A stretch of 33,700 nt of DNA from Leuconostoc inhae KCTC 3774. GTDB lineage: Bacteria > Bacillota > Bacilli > Lactobacillales > Lactobacillaceae. The position numbers were made by a program, and so were the translations under genes. The notes under the pieces are model-generated. The model ran no database searches and was not told the DNA's origin. It saw only the letters and a list, made by a program, of their open reading frames with translations. The DNA lies in contig AEMJ01000835.1 in assembly GCA_000166735.2 (NCBI GenBank), forward strand, positions 1 through 33,700, given 5' to 3'. This document shows positions 12,428 through 33,553 of this stretch, one piece after another. Numbering within the stretch: position 1 is the first letter of the stretch; each line of letters begins with the position of its first letter.

Positions 12428-13129
12428 TTAAAACAACTGCCGCATAGATTTTAAATATTTTCTAGCACAAGGTAATAAAACGCCGTTATTTAATTGAACA
12501 GTATTCGTGTGGGCATCAAAAGCTACAACTTTAGATTTATTGACCACATATGCCGCATGAATTTGCATGAAATTTTGATGCAGCTTTGGTAGTGATTTAA
12601 CCGTCGTTCGAACCTGTATATTTTTTTGTTCACAACAAACCGTCAATCGATGACTTTGTGACTGACTAGAGGTCATATAAATAATATCATTTAAATTAAT
12701 ACTTTCAGATTTTTTACCATTTGGTAGTGTTATGAATTCTGATTGCGTCCCACTTTGCTGTCGTATTTGCTGTTCTGCTTCTGTCACAGCAGATAGTAAT
12801 CGCTTAGTGAATAAAGTTTCAGATTGCACTTTATCAATGAAGTCTATCATACTAATATGATATTTAAGCCCCTGCTCGAGCATTTCCGAGTGTGTTGTGA
12901 CAATAATTATCTGCGACATTGTATCAAATTGTCTAATCATTTTTGCCACATTTAGCCCAACATTGTCAACCGTACGAATTTCTAGATCTAACAAAATAAC
13001 TTTAGCTAATTTATCTGCTTTTAATGCCTCTAACAATGAAGTTGGTTGATCAAATACTTGGCAATTTTCGATGATCTGTTGAATGCGTCGTTGTTGTACC
13101 AAGTTATCTTCTAATAAATAGTAATTCAT
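12428..13129 (-). CDS. LytTR-family response regulator
   Basis: A 233-residue regulator of the AgrA/ComE type. The receiver domain (1-120) has LEDN near the N terminus and the phospho-acceptor aspartate in ILLDLEI, and the LytTR DNA-binding domain (about 130-230) has ITLPNGKKSESINLNDIIYM and a C-terminal PCARKYLKSMRQLF. Its ATG overlaps the stop of the cognate kinase by one base (TAATG), so the pair is translationally coupled. LytTR regulators usually bind direct repeats of about 9 bases; I did not find a convincing pair in the window. Confidence 0.88.
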   Translation of the reverse strand: MNYYLLEDNLVQQRRIQQIIENCQVFDQPTSLLEALKADKLAKVILLDLEIRTVDNVGLNVAKMIRQFDTMSQIIIVTTHSEMLEQGLKYHISMIDFIDKVQSETLFTKRLLSAVTEAEQQIRQQSGTQSEFITLPNGKKSESINLNDIIYMTSSQSQSHRLTVCCEQKNIQVRTTVKSLPKLHQNFMQIHAAYVVNKSKVVAFDAHTNTVQLNNGVLLPCARKYLKSMRQLF

Positions 13130-14433
13130 TAGCTCACCGTAAACATCATTTTTTGAATAAAGTGATGCTGTTCAGCAATCGTTGTCAACTCGATATTGTC
13201 ATGTTGATTAATGTACTGCTGAACAAAATATAAGCCAAAACCACTGTGATTTTTTTAGATGAATAACCAAATTGCGCTGTTTTTGTTAGATCTGTACATT
13301 GCGTGCAACTATTGACAATCACTATTTCTTTACAATTCATTAGTAACATCGTTACGGTTTTTTAACTGTTTTTTCTGCTGATTCAATGGCATTATCTAGT
13401 AAAATGCCAATAACACGGTAAAAACTAACATCATTTTCAATTGCTATGACATCAAAAAATTCGTTAATTTCAACGTTAAATGAAACTGATTTCTCAAAAG
13501 CAATTTGATGTTTAACTAAGATAAGACTTTTTAAATTCAGATCTGCTATGTACTTTAAATTTAATATTTTCGGATCGGGCAATGTATCATTACTTTTTTA
13601 ATGACTGAATAATATGTACTTCTGATATCACTCATATTTTCGGACTGAATACCATACTCAAGACTTGCTAATATATTTTTATAATCATGTTTAAAAAATC
13701 GAAATTCCGAATATTTCGTTTCAAGTTGCTGTGTATAATTTTGACTGGCCGCCATTTCGGCATCATGTTGATTAATTTTATCTAATAATAATTCATGTTG
13801 ATTACTAATTACTGGCACAAAAATTATCGCCAATATAATACTTAATAAGAAAAAATCCCACCAAATTGAACCTGTAAATTGTTCTACAGCAAAAAAATAG
13901 GCTAAAAAATCATTCATAATTCTCAAAAATAGACTGCTCATCAAAAGTACTTGTAGTTGGACAACATGTTTTTTTAAGAAATTTTCAGTTAACCATTCAT
14001 ATTTCAATTGCCTAAATACCAACGCAAAAATCACCGCCAGAATATTAGCTAAAAAATCTAAACTAGCTTGAACAAAAACTGGTACACTTACCAAAGATGT
14101 CATCGTCATTTCAAAATTTACAACCCAATAAGCTAACAATGAACTGACAGATGCGTAGAGTAGCAAAATACATTTACTACGAATGATATTTTGTCGCCAA
14201 CCAATGTAAAATAGCAAGATTATGGATACTGTTGAAGCCAAACTGGCACGCAATAAAGGTGATTCAAAACCATTGCCAATCATATTAATCACGTACAACA
14301 TAATACTAGTTATCACGACAGTTCTTTTTGAAAAATGATGATGGCCTAATAAGGTACTGAACCAAATGAGCATCACAATACTTTCAAATATCGGCCACGT
14401 TATAACGTTAAAAATATTTAAAAATCGAAACAC
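13129..14433 (-). CDS. HPK10-type peptide-sensor histidine kinase (three frameshifts as read)
   Basis: A membrane kinase of about 435 residues resembling ComD/AgrC quorum-sensing kinases. Six or seven hydrophobic segments fill residues 1-225, then a coiled region, the phospho-histidine in FFKHDYKNIL, the N box LLDNAIESA and the G box SGFGLYFV. As read the frame breaks three times, at A-runs 13594-13599 (6), 13358-13363 (6) and 13250-13256 (7). One added A at each gives a continuous kinase ending at the regulator's start, so these look like homopolymer errors. The start is GTG preceded by a G-rich ribosome site. The likely ligand is a secreted peptide, but no peptide gene is visible nearby. 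Confidence 0.82.
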
Positions 14434-23624: not shown

Positions 23625-24706
23625 TTACCCGCCAACAGCTACTAGCTCAGACTGTCCTACTTTGATTAACTGCCCATCTTGTGTGAATAGTAGTACTTTA
23701 TCCAATAAAATATCAAAATTAATCGTATCACCAATAACCAAATTAATTTGTTCACTCACTTTAACTCTAAAGGCAGTTTCTAGACCAAGGTTAATTTCTA
23801 AGTTTGTTCCGTCTCCTAAAGGTTCAATATGAACGATAGTTCCTGTCATTCCCCCAGACTGTGTCATTACAATATTTTCTGGGCGTACCCCTAGTTTAAA
23901 TGGTCCATTAATATGCTCCCAATTGAACGGTATAGTGACACCATTTTTCATTTTTAATATATCATTTTCAATGTTGACATCAATTAAATTAATTGCTGGT
24001 GAACCAAAGAAATCAGCTACAAACGTATTGGCGGGCACATTGTAAAGTTCAAGTGGTGAGCCTATCTGTTCAATTTTGCCTTTATTAAGTAGCATAACTT
24101 GATCACCCATTGTCATCGCTTCGGTTTGATCGTGTGTCACATAAATCACCGTGATACCAAGTTGTTGTTGTAACAATCGAATTTCTTTACGCATTTCTGC
24201 ACGTAATTTTGCATCTAAATTAGATAATGGTTCATCCATCAGTATAATTTTGGCATCAGATACAAGCGCTCGGGCTAAGGATACCCGCTGTCTTTGACCA
24301 CCGGATAGATTCCCTGGTTTTTTATTCTTGTATGTCTCTAAATGCACTAAGCTCAGCACTTCCTGTAACTTTTTTGTCTCAATGTTTTAGCTGTATGTCG
24401 TGCTGTTAAACCAAACACTATATTTTCAGATACTGTTAGATTAGGCATTAATGCATAATTTTGAAAGACCATCGATAAGTTTCTATCTTTTGGGGGAAGT
24501 CTAGTAACATCCTTCCCATTAATCGTGATTACTCCCTCATCTATCGGAATGAACCCTGCAATTGCATTTAAAATCGTGCTTTTACCGGATCCAGATGCAC
24601 CCACTAATATATAAAATTGCCCATCTGCAATTGTCGTATTAATATCTGTTAGTACCTCTTCTCCATTTTCATACGTCTTTTTCAAATGTTGCAATTCGAT
24701 TGACAT
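23625..24706 (-). CDS. ugpC: ABC transporter ATPase, UgpC/MalK type (frameshift as read)
   Basis: ATPase subunit of about 360 residues that powers the Ugp-like importer. Walker A is GASGSGKST, the signature is LSGGQRQRVSLARAL, Walker B is IILMDEPLSNLD and the switch histidine is in VIYVTHDQTEA. The C-terminal 120 residues form the TOBE/OB regulatory domain (LGVRPENI). As read, six A at 24370-24375 break the frame before the signature; a seventh A gives KTLRQKKLQEVLSLV and one protein. It is the first gene of the operon. Such ATPases can serve several sugar permeases. Confidence 0.85.
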
Positions 24707-26272: not shown

Positions 26273-26808
26273 CTATAATTGAGCGTAAACAATTTTTGAA
26301 CCCCGTGCCAGTTCATGACCAATCATATTGAAATTCATAAAGGCAGGCGTACTATCAGGAGAAACGTCAAGAACATCAACGTCTAACGCAGTAACCACTA
26401 TGTGATAAGGGTGTGGTTGATCTCCTTTAGCAGGTGCAGCACCTACATATCGATTCATTCTAGCGTCCATTGGCATAGCAACTGCCTTTTCTGGCAAACT
26501 ACCACTGTTAATATCTCCTGCATTTTCAGATAATGTTGTAATATCTGCTGGTATATCTTTAATTGACCAATGCCAAAATCCTGATTCAGTGGGTGCGTCA
26601 GGATCGTACATAGTCACTACAAAGCTTTTTGTACCTGAAGGAACGTCATTCCAACTAACCTCTGGTGAAACATCTTGACCACCCTCGATACCAAACATTC
26701 CAGAATAATTCTTTTTTGGAAAAAGCCATCATTTGTTAAACCACTAACTGAAACCGTTAAATATGGAACTTTAGCTAAATTATTAAATACAATATCTTCA
26801 TTTTTCAT
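26273..26808 (-). CDS. YbhB/YbcL-type PEBP family protein (frameshift as read)
   Basis: A phosphatidylethanolamine-binding-protein homologue of about 178 residues. Conserved blocks are SPEVSWNDVPSGTKSF, MYDPDAPT, the GFWHW motif of the ligand pocket and RYVGAAPAKGDQPHPY. As read, five T (minus strand) at 26720-26724 break the frame near residue 30; a sixth gives DGFFPKKNYSGMFG and a single protein. GAGGAATTT precedes the ATG at 26808. Bacterial members are of unclear function. It lies between an oxidoreductase and an MFS gene, probably in one operon. Confidence 0.8.
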
Positions 26809-26851
26809 AATATTAAATTCCTCTATTTTGTTCAATTAAATGAACATTTTT

Positions 26852-27881
26852 TTATTTTTCCCAACCAGTTAAAACTACTTTACCAATCATTGATCCTGTT
26901 TCAACGTCAGCATGTGCTTTGCGCATATTAGACGCACTAATCATTGAATAGTTGATAGTATTAATTGGTAACAAGGCATTCTCCATATACAATTTAGCAA
27001 GATGATTCAAAATTTGATTTTGTGATGTCATTGTTACTGTCTTAAAATATGATTTACTATACATCCATTCCCAAGCAAATGTTGCCCGCTTTTTCGTTAA
27101 TTTTTGTAAATCAATTAAACGATGATTTTCAGTGGTAGCAACAATTTGACCATCTGGTTTAATTAATTCAGCAATTTCATTCCAATGAGCGTCTAAATTA
27201 TTTAAGTTTAAGATATAGTCCACGTATTTTTTGTTGAGATGTCGAACCTGCGCGACCAAATCTTGATGATGATTAACCACTTGATCAGCACCCATTTTTT
27301 TAGCCCATGATATAGATTTATCACGGGATGCTGTTGCAATGACTGTTAAACCAGCTAATTTTGCTAATTGAATGGCTATGGAACCAACCCCCCCCAGCAC
27401 CATTAATGATTAATACTGTTTTATTCTCGTTTCCAGTCCAATTAATCCCTAGCTTTTCGAATAGCGATTCATAAGCAGTTAACCCCACTAGGGGAATAGC
27501 AGCTGCCTGATCATCAGTTAAATTATTTGGTGATAAACCAACAATTCGTTCGTCTACTAGTTGTAGTTGAGCATTGCTACCTGACCGTGTAAAATCACCA
27601 GCATACCAAACTCTATCTCCTTTGTTAAATAGAGTAACTTCATCACCTATACTAGTGACAATCCCTACAGCGTCCCAACCAATAACTTTCGGCTTATTTA
27701 AGCGGTTTTTACGGCCACTTTTTCTGACAAAAGTATCAACAGGATTAACAGATACGCCGTCTACACGAACCAATAAATCATGGCCATAAGCCTCTGGTAC
27801 ATTGATATTTATATCCTGAAAACTGTCAGGATTGTCGATTGATAAATGCTGATCAAATCCAACTGCTTTAATAGAATTCAT
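26852..27881 (-). CDS. Zinc-type MDR alcohol dehydrogenase/quinone reductase family (frameshift as read)
   Basis: An NAD(P)H-dependent oxidoreductase of about 342 residues. The N half has VIGWDAVGIVTSIGDEV and YAGDFTRSGSNAQLQLVDE, and the Rossmann motif INGAGGVGSIAIQLAKLAG becomes complete only if one base is removed from the run of eight C at 27388-27395. This is the one insertion among the window's frame errors. The family reduces quinones and activated alkenes. The start at 27881 (MNSIKAVGF) follows AAAGGA. It is divergent from an HxlR regulator, a usual pairing for electrophile or oxidant stress genes. Confidence 0.8.
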
Positions 27882-27929
27882 TATTTTTCCTTTCGTCACT
27901 CATGAATTCTATGTTAAACTATAAAAAAA

Positions 27930-28830: not shown

Positions 28831-30225
28831 CTATGAGTTAAAGTAATCTTGTAACGTCAAATAATCCACTACTTTCTTGTTTTCAATAACAACAACATCT
28901 GTTGTCACATTCTCAATAAATCGTTTATCGTGCGATACAATTACCAACGCCGCTTTGCTGTCATTAATATATGTTGTCAAGGCCACTACGCCATCATAGT
29001 CAAGATAGTTGGTTGGTTCATCTAATATTAGCACGTCAAACGCTGAAATTAAGCACAATATTAGTTGTACTTTTAGCAACTGTCCTCCACTTAATTTATT
29101 TGGACTTCGAGTTAACATTTCTCGATTAACTCCCAGAGCCCCAGCAACTTCTAAAATAATTTCCTCGCGAATCCCTGATTTATTCATAAGTTGTGTTATT
29201 AAAGGAATTGACGAACACCAATCTTGATTTATATTTTGATGGAAATAGTTCACGTGTACATTTTTTTCATCTAATTTTTGAAATAATTTATCAAGTAGCG
29301 ATGTTTTTCCTACGCCGTTATCACCAAGCAAAGATAAAACATGTCCAGATTTAATATTGATTTTAAATGGTGAATTTACTAAATAGTTTTCATTAACCTT
29401 GACATTGCTAAACGACAACTGCATCGATATTTTTCCGGAATTTTGATAATAATTTAGTATCTTTAATCCTATTTTGGTAAATGGCTTCGAATCATAATGA
29501 TTATCATTGAGCGCTTGTCTCATATTTTTTGCTGAAGTCGCTAGTCGATTCTGAACTTTGTCATATTTACCAGCCAGACCTTTAGCTTTTTTGTCTGAAT
29601 TTGATATGCCTCTTACTTTTTTGGATCGTTGAGACTTTTCCTGGAGTCGCTGAACTGATTTCCGTTGTTGATTTTTTTGCTTTTTTTGTACTTCATACAT
29701 CTGAAATTCTTTATGTCGTTTCTTTTCGTACTCTAGCTGAAAATCCTCAAATTTTTGCTCATATAGTTCAGCCCGACGGTTTTCAATCAATAAGATGTTA
29801 TCAGTAGTAGAGTCTAGAAAGTCGAAATCATGACTAATCAAGAGTACTATACCAGAAAAATGCCTAATCAATCCAGATAACACCTTAATGCCATTCTTAT
29901 CTAAATTTGAAGTTGGTTCATCTAGCAATAAAATATCAGGATTAGAAAATACAGCATCTTTTAATCGTTGCAGTTGTAACTCACCAGGACTATGGTAATC
30001 TTCCCAATCATTAAATTGCGAAACTATTTTTACTTTGCCCTCTAATGATATCGTTCCTTTTTGGGGTAATAATCTACCACTAATTAAATTTATTAATGTT
30101 GTTTTACCGACTCCATTATCACCAACAATGCCGATATGACCTTCTGAAAGCCTGAAGTTTATATTGTCAAATACAATATTACCTTGATCGAATTGAAATG
30201 AGATATTTTTTACGTCAATCACCAT
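28831..30225 (-). CDS. ABC-F ATPase, antibiotic-resistance (ribosome-protection) type
   Basis: A 464-residue protein with two ABC domains and no membrane segment. Walker A sites are GDNGVGKTTLI and GDNGVGKTSLL, signatures are SPGELQLQRL (variant) and LSGGQLLKVQL, and both Walker B motifs end in DEPTSNLD or DEPTNYLD. A charged, helical interdomain linker (about residues 165-240) matches the part of ABC-F proteins that reaches toward the peptidyl transferase centre. Length and layout fit Msr/Vga/Lsa-like members, which free the ribosome from antibiotics. The start follows GGAGG and overlaps the MFS gene by 11 bases. In this locus a self-immunity role is likely (inference). Confidence 0.87.
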   Translation of the reverse strand: MVIDVKNISFQFDQGNIVFDNINFRLSEGHIGIVGDNGVGKTTLINLISGRLLPQKGTISLEGKVKIVSQFNDWEDYHSPGELQLQRLKDAVFSNPDILLLDEPTSNLDKNGIKVLSGLIRHFSGIVLLISHDFDFLDSTTDNILLIENRRAELYEQKFEDFQLEYEKKRHKEFQMYEVQKKQKNQQRKSVQRLQEKSQRSKKVRGISNSDKKAKGLAGKYDKVQNRLATSAKNMRQALNDNHYDSKPFTKIGLKILNYYQNSGKISMQLSFSNVKVNENYLVNSPFKINIKSGHVLSLLGDNGVGKTSLLDKLFQKLDEKNVHVNYFHQNINQDWCSSIPLITQLMNKSGIREEIILEVAGALGVNREMLTRSPNKLSGGQLLKVQLILCLISAFDVLILDEPTNYLDYDGVVALTTYINDSKAALVIVSHDKRFIENVTTDVVVIENKKVVDYLTLQDYFNS

Positions 30226-31456
30226 GTAAAACCTCCAAGAATCTTTTGTCAGTTAGAGCGTACAACAAACTAACAACCATTAGTCCCGTTAATATAATTA
30301 AACTAATCGATTTGATTGGCACTGTTTTTGAAACAATTGCTGCTAGAGGTGCAGTCACCATCAGTAAGGTAAATATTGTCCCCAGAGTAGTTCCTAGAAT
30401 TTTGTTATCAATTTTTTCTTGTAGTAGTGTGATAAGAATAATGCCAGTGAAACTGTTAAACAAGCTGTACAAAGCCCAAAAACAAATCAATCCAGTAATC
30501 AATATTTTCTCACTATTAATGAATGCATATAACAATGACAATAAAAATAAAGCTCCACTCTGAATCAGTAGTAACAAACGATAGTGACCTTTGTAATTCA
30601 TGACCAAAGTATGCTTACGTTGAATAACAAGTGTGGCTATAACACTAGCAACGGAAATGACAATTTGTTGAAGGGAAAAAGCATACTTGATATTTGGTAT
30701 TTTGTAATTTAAGTATAATGGCTGAATATACCAAAAAGTCCAATACAAAAAATTCATTATCAATGCATATGGAATAACCGTTTGAATTATAGGCTCATGC
30801 AATATATTCCTTAGTCCTTTGAAAGTACTGCTAACTGCTTCGTTAAACTTAAAATTTACATCACTATCATTTATCACATCAGGAATTACATTTTTTGCAG
30901 TTGAAATATTTAAAATTCCAATTGCAGATAAAATTATTAAAAATATAATTAATATAGTTGATGATTTTAAATCTAAATAAGTTATCATAACTGCCAATAA
31001 CGATCCTGACAGAATGCTAGAAATTCCCGAAACAGCAGAAAATCCTGCGTTGTTTTTTACTCTTTCACTTTCATTTTTAGCAAATTTATATGTTGATACC
31101 TCTACTGCTGATGAATAAAAAACTGAAATTAGCGAATTTAAAGTTGAAAAAATGAGTAATAGCAATATTATACCGTTAATACGCGTTTGAAACAGTGAGA
31201 AAAGCAAAATGCCAGTCACACATATACGAATTAAAGATACCCATTTCAAAATTTTAGCTGGGTTCACCATATCAGCAACAGCTCCACCAATAGGTCCACC
31301 ACCTATCTCGATAATTTGCAACATGCCAAGTAAGGCGACCATATCTTGTCGATGCAATTTTACCGCAAAATACCAAATTAAAAATAAATTAAAAGTTTGT
31401 GTAGCGACAGTTACAACACCGTCATTTAAAATTATTTTAATAAAATTTTTATTCAT
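30215..31456 (-). CDS. MFS exporter in the YcaO locus
   Basis: A 413-residue major facilitator with about 12 spans and the loop motif GGGPIGGAVADMVNPAKILK. It resembles Mef-type efflux proteins. Its ATG overlaps the ycaO stop (ATGA), and its end overlaps the ABC-F start, so the three are co-translated. The order MFS then ABC-F is the same as in the macrolide-resistance pair mef-msr. Here it more likely exports the product of the YcaO enzyme, while adding protection. Substrate unproven. Confidence 0.82.
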   Translation of the reverse strand: MNKNFIKIILNDGVVTVATQTFNLFLIWYFAVKLHRQDMVALLGMLQIIEIGGGPIGGAVADMVNPAKILKWVSLIRICVTGILLFSLFQTRINGIILLLLIFSTLNSLISVFYSSAVEVSTYKFAKNESERVKNNAGFSAVSGISSILSGSLLAVMITYLDLKSSTILIIFLIILSAIGILNISTAKNVIPDVINDSDVNFKFNEAVSSTFKGLRNILHEPIIQTVIPYALIMNFLYWTFWYIQPLYLNYKIPNIKYAFSLQQIVISVASVIATLVIQRKHTLVMNYKGHYRLLLLIQSGALFLLSLLYAFINSEKILITGLICFWALYSLFNSFTGIILITLLQEKIDNKILGTTLGTIFTLLMVTAPLAAIVSKTVPIKSISLIILTGLMVVSLLYALTDKRFLEVLHGD

Positions 31457-32483
31457 ATAAAAGGAGTTCCCCTATACTTTTCACGCAACGCAACGTTTTT
31501 GGTTGTACACAACTCTGGAAAGTAAAATGGAACAAATTGATTTGAAATCAGAGGCTGTAACTCAGGAGAGTAAACTCGAGTTGTAAATCCTTTTGGACTG
31601 TTGCCAACTGTGAGATAGTAAAACGTTGGTTGTAAACTGTTACTCTTTATTTCCTCAGAATTAATTCGGACATTCAGCAAACTATTGTCAACTCGGTTCC
31701 AAAAATCTTTACTAAATCCATGAGGTATCATTACTTGCGATAAATTATACCAATTTTCACCGCGAAAAGTGTGAATAGCTTCTAAAAGAGCATGGTTCAT
31801 CGCATTTTTTTCATCAGTATTGGTGCCAAATCCGACAGATAAAAAAGGAAAAGTAGTTGTCTCCAAGACCGCCATAATTGTTGAATATGAAAATTGATTT
31901 GATTCCAGTATTTCAAAAACACGAACTGATTTTATAATTTTTTGTTTTTTAATTTATCAAACACACTAGATTTCACTCGTATTTTTTCAATAATTTTAGA
32001 CCGTCCAAACCACCAAAACATTTTTGTGTGATGTTCAATAATTTCAGATTTACCTTTATTTAAAGCTGTTATTTTATTGATATCATGAGAGTATCCTTCA
32101 GAACTAGACCAATGTAGTTGATTTTTTTCATGCAAATCATAATTTGATTTAAATAATACCAATTCTTTTGGAAACAAAACAACATCCGATGGATCACTAA
32201 CGTTTTTAAGCTCAACATATTGTTTTTCTAAATTATACCAATTTGTATCTCCAATAATTTCTAAATTTCTATAAAAATCTGAATTTGCTTCTCCTCTCAT
32301 TTCTATTGGAACGTAATTGGTCATATCTCTTTCTTCCAATAATTCAGACAAAGCATTCGAGTATGCAATGTTATCTGTTGTATGAGTGGCCGAAGGTCTG
32401 AATGACATATTATTTTTTTCTTTGAATGTTACAAAACCTTCAATTCCGAAATTAGGAACCCTCATTAAATTTATTTCTGACAT
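31453..32483 (-). CDS. Divergent YcaO-domain protein, probable peptide-modifying enzyme (frameshift as read)
   Basis: YcaO enzymes use ATP to activate peptide backbone amides, forming azolines, amidines or thioamides. The joined protein (about 343 residues) shows three helices resembling the YcaO ATP-site helices: ALSELLEER (E47, E50), KSEIIEH (E147, E150) and NAMNHALLEAIHTF (E235), the last preceded by SVGFGTNTDEK. The C terminus is GTPFI and lacks the PxPxP tail of many azoline-forming cyclodehydratases. As read, a stop at 31932 splits it; one extra A in the run at 31938-31943 joins KNKK to IIKSVRVFEILESNQ in the downstream frame. GAGG precedes the ATG. The level of similarity is modest, and a profile search should confirm it. 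Confidence 0.68.
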
Positions 32484-32512
32484 TTAACACCTCATTTTAA
32501 ATTAAAAAATAA

Positions 32513-32540
32513 AAGAGAAGCAACTAGTCCGACTTCTCTT
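32513..32540 (-). terminator. Intrinsic terminator between the 187-residue gene and ycaO
   Basis: On the minus strand, AAGAGAAG..CTTCTCTT forms an 8-bp stem with a 12-base loop, followed by TTTATTTTTT. It lies 30 bases upstream of the ycaO start, and no promoter is evident after it, so it would make ycaO expression depend on read-through, as often seen after RiPP precursor genes. Confidence 0.75.
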
Positions 32541-32556
32541 TGTATAAATATAAGCA

Positions 32557-33120
32557 TTAACTATTAATTAGTTCAACTTCTTTGGTCATTACACTATATT
32601 TTTTAAGGAAAACAAGCTCTTGAGATAATAATCCAACAATGTCTTCTGTCAGTTTTGTGATACTACCATGTCGCAAATATTCATGGACTTGACTTTCCAT
32701 AAGAAGTTTTTCGTACGGCATCACTTCATATGCATTGTATAAATCATAGATTAAATCTGACATTTTTGTATTTGTCAAACTCATTTCCTTGAGAATAAGA
32801 ACCTCATCATTACTCAAATCAACATCAGATTGAACCGCATTCAAATTTTTAAAGAAATCATCTAAATTATTATCTAGTGCCACTGAAGCGTTCCAACTTG
32901 TAAGTAAGTTTTGTTTTACATCTTCATACTTCGCAAATGCGAGAGTATATTGTGTTGTTTTTTCGAATGACATAATTTCTTCAACATGAACATTAGCAAA
33001 ACTAAAATACGCATTAATTTGAAAAACATTTTTAACAATTGATGCATATGCCAAACGCAAATTTTCAATTTCGTTTTCTGCAATATAACACGTTGTCATT
33101 TTACAATTAATCCCACCCAT
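32557..33120 (-). CDS. Unknown 187-residue protein, first gene of the YcaO locus
   Basis: I do not recognise the family. The protein begins MGGINCKMTTCYIAENE and is otherwise predicted largely helical, acidic and soluble, with no signal peptide or membrane span. Its only two cysteines are C6 and C11, and there is a single proline. The start is well supported: GAGGA lies 9 bases upstream, an in-frame stop is just before, and a promoter is 50 bases away. It is followed by a terminator and then the YcaO gene. Possibilities are a RiPP precursor with an N-terminal core and long follower, a partner protein for the YcaO enzyme, or an immunity protein. The first is attractive because Cys and Thr are the usual YcaO substrates, but unproven. 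Confidence 0.7.
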   Translation of the reverse strand: MGGINCKMTTCYIAENEIENLRLAYASIVKNVFQINAYFSFANVHVEEIMSFEKTTQYTLAFAKYEDVKQNLLTSWNASVALDNNLDDFFKNLNAVQSDVDLSNDEVLILKEMSLTNTKMSDLIYDLYNAYEVMPYEKLLMESQVHEYLRHGSITKLTEDIVGLLSQELVFLKKYSVMTKEVELINS

Positions 33121-33170
33121 AATTCTTAATCCTCACAATTATTATTTTTAAATAAACTTTTAGTGAGTTT

Positions 33171-33199
33171 AATATAATCTTATTTTAATAAAAAGTCAA
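33171..33199 (-). promoter_or_regulatory. Promoter of the YcaO locus
   Basis: Minus-strand TTGACT (33194-33199) and TATATT (33171-33176) with a 17-base spacer. Transcription would start about 45 bases before the 187-residue gene, leaving no room for another gene before it. Confidence 0.75.
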
Positions 33200-33298: not shown

Positions 33299-33553
33299 AT
33301 GGTAAAAAAATACACTCAAGAATTTAAAAATTACATTGTTGAGATGGCCCACTCAGGTAAGTCACTTAAGGACATTCGTACAGAATATGGGGTCTGGACT
33401 GAATCTGTTCGTTCCTGGCTCAAAAAAGCTAACTATTTAGATCAATATACGCCCGAAAACGTCAGATTAAGTGCCTTTGAAAAAGAAAATAAACGTCTGC
33501 GTGAAGAACTACGTATTTTAAAAGTAACAGCAGTCTTGTTGGCAAAAAATTAA
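33299..33553 (+). CDS. IS3-family transposase OrfA
   Basis: An 84-residue DNA-binding protein with a helix-turn-helix (SGKSLKDIRTEYGVWTESVRSW is the core region, residues about 20-41) and a leucine-zipper-like C terminus (LSAFEKENKRLREELRILK). It ends in A AAA AAT TAA (33544-33553), a run suited to -1 slippage into orfB, giving the OrfAB transposase. Confidence 0.88.
   Translation: MVKKYTQEFKNYIVEMAHSGKSLKDIRTEYGVWTESVRSWLKKANYLDQYTPENVRLSAFEKENKRLREELRILKVTAVLLAKN

Follow-up and report, generated by a model that had tools for sequence, protein, structure and literature searches.

Results

What might a bacterium make with an operon that joins a YcaO enzyme, an exporter and an ATPase of the ABC-F family, in which no gene looks like that of an ordinary short precursor peptide? 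The operon in question occupies 28831-33199, promoter included, of a 33,700-nucleotide stretch of Leuconostoc inhae KCTC 3774 (contig AEMJ01000835.1, positions 1 to 33,700; hereafter, the window), and encodes a 187-residue protein, a YcaO protein, a major facilitator superfamily (MFS) exporter and an ABC-F ATPase, all on the minus strand. An initial annotation had proposed it as a compact, undescribed system for a ribosomally synthesized and post-translationally modified peptide (RiPP); the locus itself, the YcaO assignment and the linkage of the genes have stood, whereas a likely precursor with an N-terminal core, the probably artefactual break in the YcaO frame and the hint at the ribosome given by the ABC-F protein had been overlooked. 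We consider it probable that the operon makes a small RiPP from the N-terminal core of the 187-residue protein, and no description of this system was found in the passages of open-access PubMed Central (PMC) literature that the search returned.

A putative precursor with an invariant N-terminus

Relatives were sought in whole genomes and plasmids, yielding eight full-length loci in four lineages, with one YcaO gene in each locus read. The Leuconostoc lineage comprises the window (where YcaO is in two frames), a second genome of the same species (G139) and one of Leuconostoc gelidum (G011), the latter two being the carriers among 18 other genomes of the genus. The second lineage is plasmid pFAM8105 of Lactobacillus helveticus, the third consists of two genomes of another family in the same class (G1061 and G1124) with a gene content that we take to be staphylococcal, and the fourth of two genomes (G1440 and G1474) of a second Lactobacillaceae genus, presumably Lactobacillus. 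About 280 bases beside one of the staphylococcus-like loci match Staphylococcus aureus plasmids at 91-92%, and hundreds of other records less well.

In 8/8 full-length loci the open reading frame (ORF) directly 5' of YcaO opens with MGGINC, its ATG preceded at 11-14 nt by a Shine-Dalgarno-like motif (8/8) and its synonymous codons varying between loci, while the proteins are otherwise only some 24-35% alike across lineages. The frame stays open further upstream in G1440 and G1474, where the MGGINC start is favoured because the Shine-Dalgarno-like motif is placed before it. An alignment of six precursors has 14 invariant columns among 119 without gaps: all of the first six are invariant versus 8 of the other 113, and the best six-column window elsewhere holds three. 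The hypergeometric chance of six invariant leading columns is 8.7e-7 (7.4e-6 without the Met), on the assumption that columns are independent. As a DNA pattern, MGGINC had 23 matches in the window and 55 loci together (451 kb, counting overlaps), each time at the start of a precursor, and not once in the loci around other YcaO genes.

The residues after GGINC change from locus to locus: KMTT-C in the window, GGARPKS-C in L. gelidum, YQPRPKRP in L. helveticus, GHSNNR in G1061, GLSNNR in G1124, and GQSNNR in both G1440 and G1474. The staphylococcus-like and second Lactobacillaceae loci thus have G[H/L/Q]SNNR in common, and RPK stands three residues past GGINC in both L. gelidum and L. helveticus. 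When G139 is compared with L. gelidum, identity is 99.1% for YcaO (nonsynonymous and synonymous divergence, dN 0.0049 and dS 0.024), 98.7% for the MFS protein (0.0084 and 0.029) and 99.0% for the ABC-F protein (0.0027 and 0.038), compared with 96.0% (0.038 and 0.050) for the rest of the precursor, and the 12 nt and 21 nt that follow GGINC cannot be aligned. A conserved operon with an unalignable segment at this point is, in the one species pair compared, the pattern that a core peptide would leave. Judged by these comparisons, the 187-residue ORF is very probably a precursor with an N-terminal core; the earlier remark that there was no obvious short precursor was true as stated but misleading. 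A two-sequence model of the window precursor (predicted local distance difference test, pLDDT, 72.6; predicted template modelling score, pTM, 0.71) has two strands (residues 4-7 and 10-13) followed by helices within 15-186, and aligned with generic bundles only among solved structures, many of them de novo, with alpha-pore-forming toxin subunits among them.

A divergent YcaO enzyme in a frame probably broken by the assembly

The two YcaO pieces of the window score 19.7 and 13.0 bits against PF02624, under the cut-off of 25.7, and a PF02624 search across the window's own assembly gave no match at E<=0.001. The intact orthologue of L. gelidum KCTC 3527 (L029) scores 36.6 bits and more distant sequences 43.2 (P0002), 66.6 (L051) and 84.1 (P0004), which places the intact orthologue and the distant members within the YcaO superfamily by the Pfam cut-off and bears out the initial assignment. 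Searched against the PDB, a profile of four members retrieved TruD (6.6e-8), MusD (1.9e-7) and LynD (2.4e-6) as the sole three matches at E<=1, and in an NCBIfam scan SagD was the nearest model, with scores far under its cut-off. Between lineages these enzymes are 24-33% identical. Three glutamates (E147, E150 and E235), candidate residues of the ATP/Mg site, are invariant in a six-row alignment, with E147 and E150 opposite the ELVER stretch of TruD; all six rows end in P-F-I or P-F-W, and G1440, outside the alignment, ends differently.

Family scans of the operon genes recognised no E1-like partner or leader-binding domain, no TfuA partner such as accompanies thioamitide and other TfuA-linked YcaOs, and no E1-like C protein with a leader peptide. 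The lack of an E1 partner, as first noted, therefore holds in these scans, but it is not in itself new, being known in bottromycin according to passages of PMC7136475.

Over 11,251 aligned window bases, G139 shows no substitutions and 10 length differences from the window, in every one of which an A/T run is 1-2 bases shorter in the window. The window comes from a draft of 893 contigs, and G139 is a single contig of 1,954,080 bases in which YcaO is open over 343 amino acids. Because the two differ solely in the length of A/T runs and YcaO is intact in G139, the most likely cause of the frame break is a homopolymer error in the draft assembly. An ABC ATPase gene (window 23625-24706) and a PEBP-like gene (26273-26835) are also split in the window, with A/T-run bases missing, and open in G139, and protein annotation of this assembly can be expected to be unreliable. 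A zinc alcohol dehydrogenase-like gene lies in two ORFs both in the window (26852-27899, minus strand) and in G139 (L015 14450-15497), so its split is not a window-only artefact.

Gene order and decayed copies

The order precursor-YcaO-MFS-ABC-F is common to Leuconostoc and to G1061 and G1124, so that the linkage proposed initially recurs in another genus and another family, with variants elsewhere. In G1440 and G1474 a SagB-type dehydrogenase takes the position of ABC-F (TIGR03605, 1.6e-14 in L050 and 9.7e-15 in L051, below the cut-off), whereas on pFAM8105 two ABC transporter genes and ABC-F stand before the precursor and YcaO, with MFS ORFs apart. The initial statement that the system has no dehydrogenase is thus right for the window's four genes but not for this related lineage; in the clusters of L. 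gelidum, L. helveticus and the staphylococcus-like genomes, neither annotation nor reading showed an FMN dehydrogenase (SagB/McbC).

Three further genomes carry remnants: the last 118 YcaO residues at 70% identity with broken MFS and ABC-F genes (G149), the last 44-71 YcaO residues with an open MFS gene (G272), and a YcaO end with broken MFS and ABC-F genes (G229); G429 is a doubtful fourth. The MGGIN start is absent from all three remnant loci. Loss of the production end while genes for export and protection linger fits a toxin-immunity set, three cases being few. A separate YcaO set occurs on the L. brevis plasmid pBRV479 (L035 5005-9310), in which a YcaO of about 580 residues accompanies an arginase-family protein and an MFS protein. 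This set lacks both ABC-F and MGGINC and is possibly a further system that has yet to be described.

Export and candidate self-protection

The best match of the ABC-F protein is NF000355 (3.9e-87), where it scores 293 bits (cut-off 380), with relatives reaching 343 and 348 bits; it also matches the Vga family (8.9e-79, under its cut-off), and its best PDB match is 7nhl_0, a lincosamide-streptogramin A resistance protein (6.4e-52). An ABC-F of this ribosome-protection type is present in 3/4 lineages, and the MFS proteins of the window, L027 and L051 exceed the PF07690 cut-off. The locus is present in L. gelidum KCTC 3527T, which, in a tabulated passage of PMC7996808, has minimal inhibitory concentrations (MICs) of <0.03 ug/mL for clindamycin and 0.5 ug/mL for quinupristin-dalfopristin (cut-offs 1 and 4). 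Because this carrier is susceptible to both, the data argue for an ABC-F that is not a general drug-resistance gene but has a dedicated substrate, provided that the gene is expressed. The ribosome is a likely target of the product, since an ABC-F of this family would protect the ribosome of the producer.

Expression signals

The promoter and terminator claimed in the initial annotation can both be read (Table 1). The promoter-like site, which is close to the consensus, has the counterpart TTGACA-17-TATATT in L. gelidum. A hairpin with a T-run lies between precursor and YcaO in 3/4 lineages (Leuconostoc, L. helveticus, and G1061 and G1124), with unrelated sequences; among 200 shuffles of each intergenic region, those folding to as low an energy numbered 18 for the window, 15 for L015, 3 for L016, 0 for L003, 0 for L027 and 2 for L037. 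Passages of PMC7113386 and PMC4786598 describe attenuators between RiPP precursor and enzyme genes. Upstream of the precursor in G1440 and G1474 lies an HTH_3-like ORF (L050 1100-2002; L051 5967-6809, the latter at 18.7 bits against a cut-off of 23), and an ORF adjoining the G229 remnant (L019 9834-10679) scores 34.5 bits for HTH_3 with a weak tetratricopeptide repeat (TPR) match. Such ORFs are possible peptide-sensing regulators.

Discussion

A pathway consistent with these observations would begin with translation at MGGINC and removal of the Met, leaving an N-terminal core of GGINC plus about 4-7 variable residues. The long helical C-terminal domain would act as a follower that presents this core to the YcaO enzyme, which, working with ATP and without an E1-like partner, would cyclodehydrate it, most likely joining Cys6 to the Asn5 carbonyl as a thiazoline. 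We favour a thiazoline at Cys6 because of the enzyme family and because one lineage has a SagB-type dehydrogenase, which would probably oxidise thiazoline to thiazole. Because the free Gly amine is nearby, an amidine could form at the N-terminus instead, as happens in bottromycin and streptamidine. A protease encoded outside the cluster would cut off the follower, the MFS protein would export the product (the cluster on pFAM8105 has the two ABC transporter genes instead), ABC-F would shield the producer's ribosome, and the attenuator behind the precursor gene would give more precursor than enzyme. The chances seem to us evenly balanced that the system is a new RiPP class, defined by a GGINC N-terminal core on a folded helical follower of 170-240 residues and by a single YcaO without E1 partner, sometimes with a SagB-type dehydrogenase, yielding a thiazoline or thiazole peptide aimed at the ribosome, against which a dedicated ABC-F protects, and that this system has spread horizontally among food lactobacilli, leuconostocs and staphylococci.

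Several observations weigh against this pathway. No protease was recognised in the cluster; we infer the product, its cleavage, its activity and its ribosome target, the last from gene family only; and the MIC passages of PMC7996808 are silent on expression of the locus. At about 170-240 residues the follower is unusually large, and in both G1440 and G1474 it lies in two ORFs (L050 2199-2890, L051 7065-7756), a split that may be a genuine frameshift or may mean that the follower is shorter or that there are two proteins. Hypervariability after GGINC is known from one species pair. The matches of YcaO to TruD and LynD span about 150 residues, its single-sequence model (pLDDT 31.1) is too poor for fold assignment, the G1440 ORF lacks the PF(I/W) ending, and the SagD, SagB and ribosome-protection ABC-F matches are all under curated model cut-offs. 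The window hairpin does not fold strongly better than its shuffles (18/200), and G1440 and G1474, with a precursor-YcaO gap of 2 nt, have no attenuator. Finally, no ABC-F adjoins the cluster in G1474, and the G1440 contig ends there.

Other functions can be read into the same genes. The lack of a recognised protease, together with the large size of the 187-residue protein, its predicted folded helical bundle and the alpha-pore-forming toxin subunits among its structural alignments, would suit a whole protein whose N-terminus is modified by YcaO and which acts in the cell or at the surface with no peptide released, a reading that we hold to be unlikely. We are somewhat more doubtful of a signalling peptide, exported by the MFS protein, with an unassigned role for ABC-F. 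Peptide pheromones are short and vary between close species, as this core does, and HTH-TPR proteins are often peptide sensors in Gram-positive bacteria, which lends interest to the weak HTH_3 ORF 5' of the precursor in G1440 and G1474 and to the HTH_3 ORF with weak TPR beside the G229 remnant. However, in the L. helveticus and staphylococcus-like loci no kinase or regulator was recognised, by eye or annotation, as an immediate neighbour of the operon, the regulator-like ORFs that do flank the Leuconostoc operons differ from one species to the other, and three lineages have an ABC-F of the ribosome-protection type.

Drug resistance conferred by the MFS and ABC-F proteins, with YcaO and the 187-residue protein as accessories or regulators, is the explanation to which we give least credence: ABC-F is nearest to Vga and Msr types and the staphylococcus-like MFS protein weakly matches Mef macrolide efflux models, but the precursor and YcaO genes are kept together across families, a dehydrogenase replaces ABC-F in one lineage, and KCTC 3527T shows no resistance to clindamycin or quinupristin-dalfopristin, the classes in the table passage of PMC7996808. 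A divergent member of a known azole class, whether linear azol(in)e peptide or bottromycin, strikes us as improbable, despite the SagD-type YcaO, the SagB-type dehydrogenase of one lineage, and the topology, standalone YcaOs and MFS exporter shared with bottromycin (passages of PMC7136475 and PMC7113386). Neither a C-terminal core nor a C protein nor a leader was seen; no methyltransferase, P450, amidohydrolase or second YcaO was found among the operon genes; and the four YcaOs scanned gave no bottromycin-type NCBIfam match, in a library whose inclusion of such a model is unchecked.

Bottromycins are among the closest known systems. The bottromycin core has Gly after Met and ends in Asp-Cys, to be set beside Gly-Gly-Ile-Asn-Cys here, the precursors not having been aligned. 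The leaderless N-terminal core with a follower fits the sequence pattern observed, on the premise that the segment is indeed a core. As passages of PMC7136475, PMC7113386 and PMC10885120 describe, the bottromycin clusters (bot/btm/pur) have an N-terminal core and a C-terminal follower, as predicted for ours, together with standalone YcaOs and an MFS exporter, both of which are present here, and translation as the target, as proposed here. They have two YcaOs rather than one and come from Streptomyces rather than from Lactobacillaceae and a staphylococcus-like family, and the follower of 170-240 residues, predicted to be helical, and the ABC-F of three lineages set the present loci apart. Family scans of the four operon genes showed no radical SAM methyltransferase, P450 or amidohydrolase (flanking ORFs were read as sequence only), and no aminopeptidase was recognised. 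A partner protein, BtmI, takes part in bottromycin macrocyclisation (passages of PMC5103208). We rejected filing the system as a bottromycin in view of its single YcaO, the large helical follower and the tailoring genes not recognised.

Linear azol(in)e peptides such as streptolysin S share a SagD-related YcaO and, with one of our lineages, a SagB-like dehydrogenase, and the terminator behind sagA, described in passages of PMC4786598, can be likened to the hairpin here. Their cores are C-terminal and rich in Cys, Ser and Thr, whereas ours would be N-terminal with one invariant Cys; as neither a leader nor a C protein was recognised, this assignment was rejected too. Streptamidine-type amidine RiPPs have a standalone YcaO and a small product in which the N-terminal amine joins the ring, but their precursors of 31-89 residues have a leader, absent here, and are acted on by further tailoring enzymes (passages of PMC8442711). 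With antibiotic-resistance ABC-F proteins (Vga, VgaL, Msr) the window protein shares tandem ABC domains and profile and PDB matches; it differs in falling below the curated cut-offs, in its biosynthetic-type operon, and in a carrier strain that is not resistant to clindamycin or quinupristin-dalfopristin.

If the proposed pathway is correct, this would be a YcaO antibiotic system of very small size, with a precursor, a single chemical step, export and protection of the producer's ribosome packed into about 4.3 kb. Bottromycin would gain a companion among leaderless RiPPs with an N-terminal core, from food bacteria that are easy to grow, in which one could study how a YcaO acts close to a free N-terminus when it has no E1-like partner, and the core switches SNNR, RPK and KMTT would mark sites of natural product variation.

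Locus layout and neighbouring genes

The coordinates re-read from the ORFs place the four genes, and their strand, as initially reported (Table 1), and the last three overlap as claimed, YcaO and MFS by 4 bases and MFS and ABC-F by 11. The alleged AT-richness is equally evident: the GC content of the operon is 0.314, and 0/122 windows of 4290 bp within 1-28500 are that low. An ORF with IS3/HTH_Tnp_1 matches at 33299-33553 confirms the IS3 neighbour.

Table 1. Features of the operon in the window, and decayed copies in other genomes (L-numbers denote loci).
Feature	Position	Strand	Remarks
Putative precursor gene, 187 aa	32557..33120	-	N-terminal MGGINC core, long C-terminal follower (both predicted); GAGG 14 nt before ATG
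Predicted core, spanning the first 11 codons: MGGINC (invariant) and a variable segment	33088..33120	-	From sequence comparison; C-terminal boundary provisional
YcaO gene, two frames in this assembly	31453..32483	-	Pieces 31932-32483 and 31453-31875 (second open back to ~31953)
MFS exporter, 413 aa	30215..31456	-	PF07690 44.2 bits (cut-off 33.4); TIGR00900 1.1e-16, below its cut-off
ABC-F ATPase, ribosome-protection type, 464 aa	28831..30225	-	NF000355, Vga-family and PDB 7nhl_0 matches; probable self-protection
Promoter-like site TTGACT-17-TATATT, 5' of precursor gene	33171..33199	-	Read from sequence by eye
Attenuator-like hairpin and T-run, between precursor and YcaO genes	32503..32540	-	Intergenic region folds at -14.7 kcal/mol
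Decayed operon copies, YcaO end with MFS and/or ABC-F	L017 9986-12970; L018 8198-9624; L019 6567-9360		

Elsewhere in the window, at 12428-14433 on the minus strand, ORFs in a region of local GC ~0.29 resemble, by eye, a LytTR-type response regulator and a sensor kinase of an agr-like system.

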